Shown here in pieces: positions 14,089-34,255 of a DNA stretch of 38,964 bases (positions are counted from its first letter, which is position 1; each line of letters begins with the position of its first letter). Made by a program: the position numbers and the translations under genes. This DNA is from Flavobacteriaceae bacterium (GTDB lineage Bacteria; Bacteroidota; Bacteroidia; Flavobacteriales; Flavobacteriaceae): contig JAQWJH010000066.1 of NCBI GenBank assembly GCA_029248455.1, positions 1 through 38,964 of the forward strand, given 5' to 3'. The notes under the pieces are model-generated. The model was not told where the DNA came from. It saw nothing but the letters and a program-made list of their open reading frames with translations, and ran no database searches.

Positions 14089-14790
14089 ATGAATTTTAGT
14101 AAAGAATCTTTTATTAATGGAAAATTAATTTTAATAAACAAACCGGTTGGTTGGACCTCTTTCCAGGTTGTGAACAAAATAAGATGGTTAATCAAATCTT
14201 CATATGATTTAAAAAAAATTAAAGTCGGTCATGCTGGAACTTTAGATCCATTGGCACAGGGACTTCTTATTATTTGTACTGGAAAACTAACCAAAAAAAT
14301 TACTGAATTTCAAAATGAAAAGAAAGGATATTGTGGAACTTTCTTTCTTGGAGCAACCACTCCTTCGTTTGATTTAGAAACAGAAATTGATTCAAAAAGT
14401 TCAATTGAAAATATTGATTCAAACATACTGGAAGCTACTGCTAAAAAATTTTTAGGCTGTATAAATCAAACTCCACCTATTTATTCAGCTCTTAAGGTCA
14501 ATGGAAAGAAACTTTATGATTATGCTAGAAAAGGTGAGCAGGTTAAACTTAAAAAGCGTGAAATAAATATTTTTAAATTTGAACTTAATTCAGTTAAACT
14601 TCCACTTATTGATTTTGAAATTGAATGTAGTAAAGGAACCTACATAAGGTCTATTGCAAATGATTTCGGAAAAGAGTTAAAAGTTGGTGCTTACTTACAT
14701 AAGTTAATAAGAACCAGCATTGGAGATTTTAAACTTAGCAATGCTTTAAGTATTGATGATTTTCAAAAAAAAATAAAAAAATTAAGCTAA
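14089..14790 (+). CDS. truB: tRNA pseudouridine(55) synthase
   Basis: 233 aa; INKPVGWTSFQVVNKIRW, GHAGTLDPLAQGLLIICTG, QTPPIYSALKVNGKKLYDYAR, CSKGTYIRSIA. Confidence 0.97.
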   Translation: MNFSKESFINGKLILINKPVGWTSFQVVNKIRWLIKSSYDLKKIKVGHAGTLDPLAQGLLIICTGKLTKKITEFQNEKKGYCGTFFLGATTPSFDLETEIDSKSSIENIDSNILEATAKKFLGCINQTPPIYSALKVNGKKLYDYARKGEQVKLKKREINIFKFELNSVKLPLIDFEIECSKGTYIRSIANDFGKELKVGAYLHKLIRTSIGDFKLSNALSIDDFQKKIKKLS

Positions 14791-15414
14791 GTATTTTAAA
14801 AATTCTGATCTAGGAATTATTTCAGCACCTAAACTTTTTAAATGAGCGCTTGGAACCTGGCAATCAATTAATTTATAGTCATTTTTTAATAGCTCCTTTA
14901 CCAAAAAAATAAAAGCTATTTTACTTGCATTATTTGTTTTTGTAAACATACTTTCCCCGCAAAAAACGTTTCCTAAATCAATTCCATAAAGCCCTCCTAC
15001 TAATTCGTAATTTTCCCAAACTTCAACAGAATAGGCATACCCTTTGTCATGTAGTATTTTATAAGCCTTCATTAAACCATCAGTTATCCAAGTACCATTT
15101 TGTCCAAACCTTTTAACTTTTGCACAGGCATTGACAACTTCCATAAAAGACTTGTTGAATGTAATTTGAAATGGGTTATTCTTTAAAATTTTTTTTGTTG
15201 ATTTAGATATTCTTAATTTTTCAGGAAATAGTACCATCCTTGGATCAGGACTCCACCAAAATAATTCATTATCATTTTCAAACCATGGGAAAATTCCCAT
15301 TTTATAAGCGAGTAATATCCTTTGAGGGTCTAAATCTCCACCAACAGCAACTATTCCCTCTTTACTAGCATTAAGTGGAGATGGAAATATATGTTCGCTG
15401 TCAAGCTTATGCAT
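14782..15414 (-). CDS. aat: Leucyl/phenylalanyl-tRNA--protein transferase
   Basis: 210 aa; [29 protein letters not shown]-like N-term, [43 protein letters not shown]. Confidence 0.96.
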   Translation of the reverse strand: [210 protein letters not shown]

Positions 15415-15419
15415 CTTTA

Positions 15420-15797
15420 CTAAAATGGAAGATCGTCTGGCTCTTCTTTATTTATCTCATCTGCAGGCTCAAATGCTTCAGCTGGAGGAACAGGTGGAAT
15501 GGCAGAATCATCATTTTCAGAAAATAATTTTTCTATTCTCCATCCTTGAATAGAGTTGAAATATTTAATTTCTCCCTGTGGACTTTCCCATTCTCGTCCT
15601 CTAAGGTTAATGTCTACCTTTACAGATTGACCAACTTGATATGAATTTAAAAGATCACACTTGTCTTGAATAAATTCAATTAATAAATCTTGCGGGTATT
15701 GTTCTTCAGTTGTAATAACTACTTCTCTTTTTTTAAAACCATTTGATCCATATTCTTTGGTCTCATTTATCAACTTTAACTTGCCTGTAATATCCAT
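15420..15797 (-). CDS. DUF3127 family protein; OB-fold/SSB-like with a C-terminal DDLPF tip
   Basis: 125 aa; MDITGKLKLINETKEYGSNGFKKREVVITTEEQYPQDLLIEFIQDKCDLL..., acidic linker, ends ...EEPDDLPF. Confidence 0.85.
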   Translation of the reverse strand: MDITGKLKLINETKEYGSNGFKKREVVITTEEQYPQDLLIEFIQDKCDLLNSYQVGQSVKVDINLRGREWESPQGEIKYFNSIQGWRIEKLFSENDDSAIPPVPPAEAFEPADEINKEEPDDLPF

Positions 15798-18457: not shown

Positions 18458-20551
18458 TTAGAATTTATAATTTAAGCCAATGGAAATATTTCTTCCCATT
18501 TCATAAATACCAATATTTTTAAGTCTTGATAAATGATCATAATATTCTGTGTCAAATAAATTATTGACTGACCAACTTAGATCGATATTATTATCTAATA
18601 AATTAAGGTTATGAGAACCTGAAACACCCACAACTAGATATGAGTTCGTTTTGGTTTCAAATAAAGCCAAGTTTTTCTTTTCACCTTTAGCTAGGGCTCT
18701 TAATTCAAAATGATTATTGCCAAAATCAAAATTAAATGAATGTTTAAAAGTAATAGGAGGCATTAATGGTAAAAACCCTCCAGACTTTTTCCCGTTCAAT
18801 AATGATAGTGATGTTTTATAAGATAACCAATCAAATGATGTTTCTCTGTCGGCATATAATTCCATTCCCAATAAAGTAGCATCATTTTGTACATAATTAT
18901 AAACTGGCATACCATCGATAGTATTTCCTGTTGGATCTAAATAAATGAAATTACTTAATTTATTAATAAAAACATCCACCCCAAATGTTGAGTTTGAAGT
19001 ATATGTTTCTATAGTGAAATCAGCTTGAAAACTTTTTTCTTCCGCTAAATCTATGTTTCCTATTTCATATTGTGCTGTTCCATGATGAACACCTTCTGCA
19101 AATAATTCAGAAAGATTAGGAGCTCTATATCCGCTAGATAAATTTAGCCTCATTATTCCTTTATCTTCTAACATCACCTTATACCCAAATGAAGCCGTAA
19201 GACTGCTATAGCTTTTATCAAAACCTATTTTTTTAATTTTTCTAAAATCAGTTCTAAGTCCTAACATGAAATCACCACCTTGAGTATGTAGATGTGAAAT
19301 TCCATAAAAACCAATGTCATTTTTCTCGACATCAGGAATTAAAAACTCTTCTCCATTATTTTTATTTTCTTGAGACATAATGCTTGAACCAATAACAAAC
19401 TCTGATTTTTCAGTTTTTGGAAATAAATATTTCAAATCAACTGTTGTGGTGTTTAAATCAAAATCAATGTGTGCCTCTCCTTCATGCTCATCATGGTCTT
19501 CATCCTCATCATGGTCTTCGTCTTCATCATCATGATCCTCACCTTCCTCATGTTCGTCGTGATGACCAAATTCTTTTCTGTTATTGAAACTACGACCCAA
19601 AATTATTTCAAACTCAGACTTATTATCGTAAATAAAAGTATTTTTCCAAGTCAGTATGGAGTTTGTCAAATCTTGATAACTCTCTTCCTCTTCATGGTCT
19701 TCACCTTCGTGATCCTCGTCATCGTGATCCTCATCTTCGTGATCCTCATCGTCGTGATCCTCATCACCATGTTCATCGTGATCTTCATCTCCGTGAGTAA
19801 TTCCAAGTTTTGTTTTTGTAATATTAAATCTTAAATCTGTAATAAATTTTTTGGATTTATAACCTAATCCAAATTTAAAATCTTTATTATCATAATAAGT
19901 GTTTTCTACTTTTCCGTGTGGCGTTTCAAAATCTTTATTATCAACCATACTTCCCTGAATAAGGTAACTAAGGTTATTTAAACTTCCTTTAATTCCTAAA
20001 TTATTGGTAAGCCCACTATAATTTGAATTAAAAAAACTTCCAATTTCAACTTCAAAATCTTCACTTGTATAGGAGTCAGGATTCACATAAATGACACCTC
20101 CAATGGCATCAGAACCATACAAGACAGACGCTGGGCCTTTAATTAACTCAACAGATTCTATTCCAAAACCATTAATATCCATTCCATGTTCTGCTCCCCA
20201 TTGTTGATTTTCTTGTCTCATGTATTGATTAAATACAACAACTCTGTTAGAGCTTAGTCCACGAATGACAGGCTTTGAAATACCAGGACCTGTGGAAATT
20301 ATAGAAATTCCAGGGATTTCTTGGATTGAATTAGAAAAGTTTATTGATTTAGTAATATTTAAGTCTTTAAAGTTTAATTTATTGACTTTTAATACATTAT
20401 TCTTTAATGACTCTTTAAAAGGAGTGGATAGCACTACTTCGTCAAGATTTACAGTTACTATCGTGTCATTCTCTTGCATATTTTGAGATATAACACTGTT
20501 TGTGCTTAGTAGCACTAATGCCACTAGGGCATAATTTAAAATATTTTTCAT
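18458..20551 (-). CDS. TonB-dependent outer membrane receptor with His/Asp/Glu-rich loops (probable zinc/metal receptor)
   Basis: 697 aa; plug PVIRGLSSNRVVVFNQ...MDINGFGIESVELIKGPASVLYGSDAIGGVIYV; HDEHGDEDHDDEDHEDEDHDDEDHEGEDHEEEE and HHDEHEEGEDHDDEDEDHDEDEDHDEHEGEAH segments; C-terminal aromatic (NYKF). Confidence 0.92.
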   Translation of the reverse strand: MKNILNYALVALVLLSTNSVISQNMQENDTIVTVNLDEVVLSTPFKESLKNNVLKVNKLNFKDLNITKSINFSNSIQEIPGISIISTGPGISKPVIRGLSSNRVVVFNQYMRQENQQWGAEHGMDINGFGIESVELIKGPASVLYGSDAIGGVIYVNPDSYTSEDFEVEIGSFFNSNYSGLTNNLGIKGSLNNLSYLIQGSMVDNKDFETPHGKVENTYYDNKDFKFGLGYKSKKFITDLRFNITKTKLGITHGDEDHDEHGDEDHDDEDHEDEDHDDEDHEGEDHEEEESYQDLTNSILTWKNTFIYDNKSEFEIILGRSFNNRKEFGHHDEHEEGEDHDDEDEDHDEDEDHDEHEGEAHIDFDLNTTTVDLKYLFPKTEKSEFVIGSSIMSQENKNNGEEFLIPDVEKNDIGFYGISHLHTQGGDFMLGLRTDFRKIKKIGFDKSYSSLTASFGYKVMLEDKGIMRLNLSSGYRAPNLSELFAEGVHHGTAQYEIGNIDLAEEKSFQADFTIETYTSNSTFGVDVFINKLSNFIYLDPTGNTIDGMPVYNYVQNDATLLGMELYADRETSFDWLSYKTSLSLLNGKKSGGFLPLMPPITFKHSFNFDFGNNHFELRALAKGEKKNLALFETKTNSYLVVGVSGSHNLNLLDNNIDLSWSVNNLFDTEYYDHLSRLKNIGIYEMGRNISIGLNYKF
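19466..19566 (-). repeat. Low-complexity acidic/His coding repeat (second His-rich loop of the TBDR)
   Basis: Repeated tcatggtcttc/atcctcatcatgg units encoding HHDEHEEGEDHDDEDEDHDEDEDHDEHEGEAH. Confidence 0.8.
19682..19800 (-). repeat. Low-complexity acidic/His coding repeat (first His-rich loop of the TBDR)
   Basis: Repeated (t)cgtgatcctcatc units, e.g. 'tcgtgatcctcatcttcgtgatcctcatcgtcgtgatcctcatc', encoding HGDEDHDEHGDEDHDDEDHEDEDHDDEDHEGEDHEEEE. Confidence 0.85.
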
Positions 20552-26971: not shown

Positions 26972-27457
26972 TTAAGCTTTTTTTGTTGTTTTCTTAGCAG
27001 CTGGCTTCTTAGCAGCTGATTTCTTAGCAGCTGGCTTCTTAGCAGCTGGCTTCTTGGCAGCTGGCTTCTTAGCAGCTAGCTTTTTTTCAACGGCTGGCTT
27101 TGATTCTTTTACTTCTGACTTAGCGTCAGCTACAGGTTTGGCACCTTTTTCAAGAATTTTTTCAACCATAATTTCAGTTAAAAACTGACGATGTCCGTTT
27201 TTAACTTTGTAACCTTTTCTTCTTTTTTTCTTAAAAACAATCACTTTGTCGTCTTTCAAATGCTTAATAATCTTTGCTTCGACAGCAGCTCCTTTAACAG
27301 AGGGAGTGCCTAAAACAACTTTACCAGCATTATCAAGCAATAATATATTATCAAAAGTTACCTTAGAACCTTCTTTTGCATCAAGTCTATTGACAAATAT
27401 TTTTTGATTTTTCTCGACTTTAACTTGCTTTCCTCCAATTTCAACTATTGCATACAT
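26972..27457 (-). CDS. rplU: 50S ribosomal protein L21 with Lys/Ala-rich C-terminal extension
   Basis: MYAIVEIGGKQVKVEKNQKIFVNRLDAKEG...FKKKRRKGYKVKNGHRQFLTEIMVEKI then AAKKPAAKK repeats. Start moved from the track's 27487 to the ATG at 27457. Confidence 0.97.
   Translation of the reverse strand: MYAIVEIGGKQVKVEKNQKIFVNRLDAKEGSKVTFDNILLLDNAGKVVLGTPSVKGAAVEAKIIKHLKDDKVIVFKKKRRKGYKVKNGHRQFLTEIMVEKILEKGAKPVADAKSEVKESKPAVEKKLAAKKPAAKKPAAKKPAAKKSAAKKPAAKKTTKKA
26991..27080 (-). repeat. Six tandem 15-bp units encoding the AAKKP pentapeptide tail of L21
   Basis: ttcttagcagctggc repeated six times (26991-27080) with only a few single-base variants. Confidence 0.92.
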
Positions 27458-27484
27458 AATATTATTTTTAATCAAAAACGTGTG

Positions 27485-27515
27485 CAAATATACAAGTATT
27501 GACCATATATCACAA
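27485..27515 (-). promoter_or_regulatory. Putative Bacteroidota-type promoter for rplU-rpmA
   Basis: Minus strand TTG (27515-27513), 20-nt spacer, TATATTTG (27492-27485). Confidence 0.65.
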
Positions 27516-33829: not shown

Positions 33830-34255
33830 TTAAAATGGTAAATCATCTGAATCACTGTTTTGATTTTCAGGGAGGATTTCTTTGACATCTGTCGGTGGAG
33901 AATTAGTTGTTATATCATTTTTTGTTGAAAGAAAGTTAAACTCAGAAATATGAATTTCAGTCGAATATCTTTGAATGCCATCATCAGATTGCCATTTTCT
34001 TGTTTTTATTTTTCCTTCAACATATATTTTATCTCCTTTATTTAGATATTTTTCACAAACTTCTGCGGCTTTATTTCTTACAACTACGTTGTGCCACTCG
34101 GTGTTTGAAACTTTTTCGCCTGTTGTTTTATTTGTATAACTCTCATTAGTGGCAATTGGAAATCTTCCAATACAACCACCACCATCGAAATGATGCATTT
34201 TTACTTCATCACCTAAATTACCGATTAACATTACTTTATTTAAAGATCCACTCAT
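33830..34255 (-). CDS. ssb: Single-stranded DNA-binding protein
   Basis: 141 aa; LNKVMLIGNLGDEVKMH..EWHNVVVRNKAAEVCEKYLNKGDKIYVEGKIKTRKWQSDDG; C-terminal SDDLPF. Confidence 0.97.
   Translation of the reverse strand: MSGSLNKVMLIGNLGDEVKMHHFDGGGCIGRFPIATNESYTNKTTGEKVSNTEWHNVVVRNKAAEVCEKYLNKGDKIYVEGKIKTRKWQSDDGIQRYSTEIHISEFNFLSTKNDITTNSPPTDVKEILPENQNSDSDDLPF

Follow-up and report, generated by a model that had tools for sequence, protein, structure and literature searches.

The minus strand of the window (the whole stretch of 38,964 nt that was analysed) carries, at 15420-15797, the ORF of 125 aa for which the initial annotation had claimed a C-terminal EEPDDLPF and a tip shared with the single-stranded DNA-binding protein (SSB) encoded at 33830-34255. 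Both translations bear out the common DDLPF ending, the protein of the DUF3127 family terminating in ...NKEEPDDLPF and the canonical SSB in ...SDSDDLPF. The relevant features of the window are as follows.

15420..15797, minus strand: DUF3127 gene, 125 aa, proposed minimal SSB (ORF; PF11325, E 9.6e-31; phrog_4932, E 7.3e-46)
15528..15797, minus strand: predicted OB-fold core, residues 1-90, built of five strands, the third and fourth being separated by a helix (AlphaFold2, Foldseek)
15423..15527, minus strand: acidic linker and tail, predicted to be disordered, residues 91-125 (pLDDT ~60, almost no regular structure)
15420..15437, minus strand: SSB-type tip DDLPF and stop codon of the DUF3127 gene (pattern search; P-F invariance)
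33830..34255, minus strand: canonical ssb gene, 141 aa, used for comparison (PF00436, E 1.3e-29; TIGR00621, E 3.4e-35)
33830..33847, minus strand: DDLPF tip and stop codon of the canonical ssb gene (pattern search)
14782..15414, minus strand: aat-like gene, leucyl/phenylalanyl-tRNA-protein transferase, 5 nt downstream of the DUF3127 gene (named from sequence)

The protein scored 106.3 bits against PF11325, the Pfam gathering cut-off being 27, and thus belongs to exactly this family, which is listed as a domain of unknown function. Of the 80 fetched Flavobacteriaceae DUF3127 loci, 74 have a homologue of the aat-like gene downstream of DUF3127 and on its strand, but none was found near 29 DUF3127 loci from a family of tiny-genome symbionts considered below. 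A functional link between the two genes was dropped, as this neighbour order, though kept in close relatives, was not seen at the symbiont loci. Elsewhere on the minus strand of the window, a ribosomal protein L21-like ORF (26972-27487) carries long C-terminal AAKKPAAKK repeats resembling the tail of histone H1, and a TonB-receptor-like protein (18458-20551) contains two long His/Asp/Glu-rich inserts (HDEDHDEHGDEDHDD...), which are probably metal binding; the repeat in the latter gene opens an antisense ORF at 19469-19834, which is probably spurious.

The conservation of the C-terminus, proposed by the initial annotation as a check, was upheld in a survey of 168 fetched cellular homologues spanning several classes of the phylum: P-F is the end of every one, and 154 have DDLPF. 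Members from outside the class are included, and variants such as HDVPF, GDMPF and DDCPF occur. The tail varies in length from 19 to 71 residues and is net acidic in each of the 167 cellular homologues measured. The disordered acidic linker with a D-D-[LI]-P-F end, one of the marks of a canonical SSB, is found in DUF3127 as well. A degenerate DNA pattern for DD[LIVMF]PF followed by a stop codon occurs at exactly two sites in the 1.55-Mb assembly containing the window, the DUF3127 gene and ssb, and the common tip is therefore not a product of chance. Across twelve genomes the same pattern gave 20 sites, comprising 12 DUF3127 genes (present in every genome), seven canonical SSB genes and one DnaB helicase gene, and a backwards control pattern gave two.

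Relationship of the DUF3127 core to that of SSB, initially suggested from an alignment by eye, proved to be real. Pairwise BLASTP between the DUF3127 protein and the SSB of the window showed 29% identity over 70 aa, partly in the tail. When the tail was left out and residues 1-90 of a 126-sequence DUF3127 alignment were compared with the core of 37 SSBs, the profile-profile match had an E-value of 3.5e-6 and a score of 36.1, with the controls reaching at most 16.8 (59 column-shuffled profiles) and 11.9 (reversed profile); with E. coli SSB heading the SSB profile, the tail-free E-value was 4.4e-6. The profile alignment places Tyr34 of DUF3127 opposite Trp40 of E. coli SSB and Trp70 opposite Trp88, and both of these tryptophans stack on ssDNA. 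All 126 DUF3127 sequences have Y or F at position 34 and W, Y or F at position 70, so that aromatic residues occupy two of the three main ssDNA-stacking Trp positions of the canonical protein. In contrast to canonical SSB, DUF3127 lacks in this alignment the eleven-residue stretch with Trp54 (loop L23), has no N-terminal NKVxLIGNLG strand, as seen in both sequence and alignment, and possesses a core of about 90 residues instead of about 110. Neither PF00436 nor TIGR00621 matched the protein even at E ≤ 10. Judging from its sequence, the protein is an SSB-like variant filed as DUF3127, one that escapes the canonical score test and is devoid of two sequence landmarks.

A search of PHROGs matched residues 1-125 to positions 1-117 of the 117 of phrog_4932, 'single strand DNA binding protein', at full length (E 7.3e-46), and the second match was the main SSB family (E 6.7e-5). 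PHROG 4932 is thus the same family as DUF3127; it differs in being annotated by remote similarity and in phages only, whereas the cellular members are still named DUF3127. PDB sequence searches with the protein and the profiles returned nothing significant. A cold-shock identity (CspD, CspE; NCBIfam) was also considered and dropped, the matches (E 0.03-0.12) being far under the cut-offs.

The divergent OB fold claimed by the initial annotation was likewise recovered in structure prediction. In the AlphaFold2 model, a monomer built from the 126-sequence alignment, residues 1-90 (pLDDT ~94) form five main strands, the third and fourth of which flank a helix, the order being that of an OB barrel, and residues 91-125 are of low confidence (pLDDT ~60). 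Foldseek against PDB gave 131 matches at E ≤ 0.001, and among the matches listed 50/50 were bacterial SSBs; the best was that of Coxiella (3tqy, E 5.5e-7), and the highest TM-score given, 0.74 by target length, belonged to that of Salinibacter (5odn). Among predicted viral structures, the top matches included DUF3127 proteins and phage SSBs. On the basis of this model, DUF3127 is predicted to share the SSB-type OB fold of canonical SSBs.

DUF3127 also occurs in phages; two scans of IMG/VR yielded more than 500 encoding stretches each. A gene for YqaJ exonuclease, ERF, RecT, PD-(D/E)XK nuclease or NinG was located within 3 kb in 78 of 159 phage DUF3127 loci, and YqaJ directly adjoined DUF3127 in 18 of the 25 loci having it. 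The gene order in Nonlabens phage P12024L is ERF annealing protein, YqaJ exonuclease, DUF3127, a small hypothetical gene, DUF3310 and primase, DUF3127 occupying the kind of slot in which other phages carry a canonical SSB beside ERF/exonuclease genes. No separate SSB ORF was found at any of the 159 loci (1.31 Mb of flanking stretches), nor any separate DUF3127 ORF in the flanks of 23 phage SSB loci, three of whose SSB ORFs were themselves weakly scored by the DUF3127 profile. The P-F end was present in 71/80 and 59/79 phage proteins in two samples. The RefSeq name for the phage copies is single strand DNA binding protein, and gp25 of phage AAS23 has been reported as an SSB also matching the DUF3127 domain (PMC8004638); as an annotation, the function of the phage copies is already known. 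A separate subgroup of phage proteins (loci L322, L326, L327, L330, L332-L335, L342-L345, L347, L349 and L363) stops right behind the OB core (...SVKAWKI), the acidic tail and the tip both being absent; in the vicinity of at least one member there is a gene encoding a DnaA C-terminal-like domain. An additional DUF3127 copy, shorter or more divergent and perhaps derived from a prophage, was noticed in each of the genomes G028 (C9:134507-134746), G035 (C27:49456-49710) and G141 (C12:13337-13594).

The distribution of both genes was analyzed in 198 genomes of the phylum, 50 of them related to the source of the window at the class level or closer and 148 more distant. All of the former encode both DUF3127 and SSB; DUF3127 is present in 64 of the latter, and SSB in 197 genomes of the whole sample. 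In the tiny-genome symbiont family, DUF3127 was detected in 57/61 genomes and canonical SSB in a single one, the 1.3-Mb member. Most genomes of this family are about 200, 300 or 600 kb, presumably the sizes of those of Sulcia and Blattabacterium (these genus names are our assumption and not an assignment), and all the ~600-kb ones keep DUF3127. Three complete symbiont genomes (345, 196 and 630 kb) were searched with the SSB profile across all six-frame ORFs (HMMER --max): each time the top match was the DUF3127 ORF, which was also the sole ORF with an SSB-like tip. Matches to PF00436 at E ≤ 10 were absent from seven genomes keeping DUF3127, including an unrelated single-contig genome of 1.9 Mb, the sole member of its family in the comparison, whose DUF3127 ends in DDDDLPF. 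Both genes are missing in 4/61 genomes of the symbiont family; for two of these four, G058 and G064 (L427-L446; 183-189 kb, ~10% GC), this was confirmed by a separate search, and E. coli DnaE had no tblastn match in G058. Regarding the 'paralogous SSB-like factor' of the initial annotation, the SSB-like character and the occurrence beside SSB hold for the class, but the wording is too modest for the symbiont family and one other lineage, in which DUF3127 is the only SSB-like protein.

The same genomes restrict the possible partners of the tip. By family searches, PriA and RecO were both found in the genome of the window, in one free-living relative and in the 1.9-Mb genome without ssb, and neither was found in any of the 12 symbiont-family genomes searched, the ~600-kb G047 and G051 among them. 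PriA and RecO, to which the initial annotation had linked the tip, cannot be its only partners, because the tip is kept where both are undetected, and so this part of the claim does not explain the tip everywhere. Searches by tblastn with E. coli queries in five symbiont genomes detected the primase DnaG in all of them, RecG and a RecQ-like match only in the 630-kb genome, and RecJ only in the 345-kb one.

Considering these data, we estimate at roughly 80% the probability that DUF3127 is a minimal, divergent SSB-type protein, which would bind ssDNA and dock partners, and which is the sole SSB candidate where ssb has been lost. Residues 1-90 would form the predicted OB barrel binding single-stranded DNA, with the bases probably stacking on Tyr34 and Trp70, and residues 91-125 would serve as a disordered acidic tether presenting an SSB-type docking tip. 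Since the L23 loop, the Trp54 equivalent and the NKVxLIGNLG strand are missing, the footprint and oligomer of DUF3127 are probably unlike those of SSB, which in Flavobacterium psychrophilum is an ssDNA-binding tetramer (PMC3991886). Free-living Bacteroidia would use DUF3127 alongside canonical SSB; recombination or repair is a possible setting, given that ERF/RecT annealing proteins and YqaJ exonucleases are encoded near the phage copies. In the tiny symbiont genomes and in the one other lineage without ssb, it would be the only SSB candidate and probably coats ssDNA during replication; in those symbionts the tip would need a docking partner different from PriA and RecO, DnaG being a candidate. 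Counting against the SSB-type identity are the missing PF00436 score, the lack of significant matches in the PDB sequence searches and the tail-less phage copies.

Beyond this, it is an even bet, in our judgement, that canonical SSB has given way to DUF3127 as the replicative ssDNA-binding protein throughout the insect-symbiont-type family of Bacteroidota and, separately, in the 1.9-Mb lineage, a phylum-specific second SSB having taken over with its tip kept for replisome contacts alone. Loss of ssb alone does not prove replacement, because tiny genomes elsewhere can be without ssb and have no evident replacement for it. No ssb is annotated in Tremblaya princeps, Hodgkinia, Carsonella and Portiera, nor in the Bacteroidota endosymbiont of Llaveia axin axin (PMC5016991). 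These cases, together with the four symbiont-family genomes devoid of both genes, lend some credit to the view that DUF3127 binds ssDNA but owes its retention in symbionts to some side task, their genomes replicating without a general SSB. Such a view concerns the replacement step only, being compatible with the SSB-type identity, and we consider it conceivable but rather doubtful, as DUF3127 is retained in every ~600-kb genome of the family, though PriA and RecO are undetectable in G047 and G051, and as the tip persists behind a hypervariable linker.

The SSB-type identity itself has two competitors. The co-occurrence of both genes in 50/50 class-level genomes, usually with the same tip, would suit an accessory subunit or regulator that acts only together with canonical SSB, by forming mixed oligomers with it or competing with it for partners, and does not serve as a general ssDNA coat itself; such a role is improbable, since DUF3127 and its tip persist in the symbiont genomes and the 1.9-Mb genome lacking canonical SSB. 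Even less credence is given by us to an RNA-binding, cold-shock-like or PriB-like primosome protein having only the fold in common with SSB. OB folds are widespread, and the sub-threshold CspD/CspE matches and the missing L23 loop and Trp54 would suit such a protein, but the listed structural matches in PDB, the tail-free profile homology, the retained tip and the DNA recombination modules of the phages all point to SSB, and, to our knowledge, PriB and cold-shock proteins carry no SSB-type tail. PriB and accessory SSBs such as SsbB are nevertheless among the known parallels to DUF3127, being SSB-derived OB-fold proteins that occur beside the main SSB; PriB has no acidic tip, and we know of no lineage in which either is the sole SSB.

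In our literature searches, the AAS23 study was the only one found to name DUF3127; publications dealing with the cellular protein, with its being kept where ssb is lost, or with SSB replacement in Sulcia or Blattabacterium did not turn up. The class-wide cellular second SSB and the replacement pattern appear to be new. If the replacement is true, one of the most conserved jobs in bacterial replication was taken over by a phylum-specific second SSB, and, acting as an SSB, DUF3127 would account for genome replication in the many symbionts that lack ssb. A gene of every sampled genome of the class, listed under 'unknown function', would gain a role in recombination or at the replication fork that experiments can test, and the SSB interactome of Bacteroidota could be probed with a second bait. 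The genomes having the tip without PriA and RecO offer a natural test of the minimal need for an SSB tip.

Two further forms of the tip were noted. In G029 (L483, C2:316153-316170), the DnaB replicative helicase (TIGR00665, E 6.7e-159) itself has an SSB-like C-terminus, NDFDDDDDFPF; DnaB of the five symbiont genomes checked carries no such tip. In the 196-kb, 17% GC genome G054 (L060, C1:135282-135806), the DUF3127 protein has a long Asp/Glu run followed by the basic stretch HKNKKKNKKN and then NLPF, so that the tip is retained after a remodelled linker.
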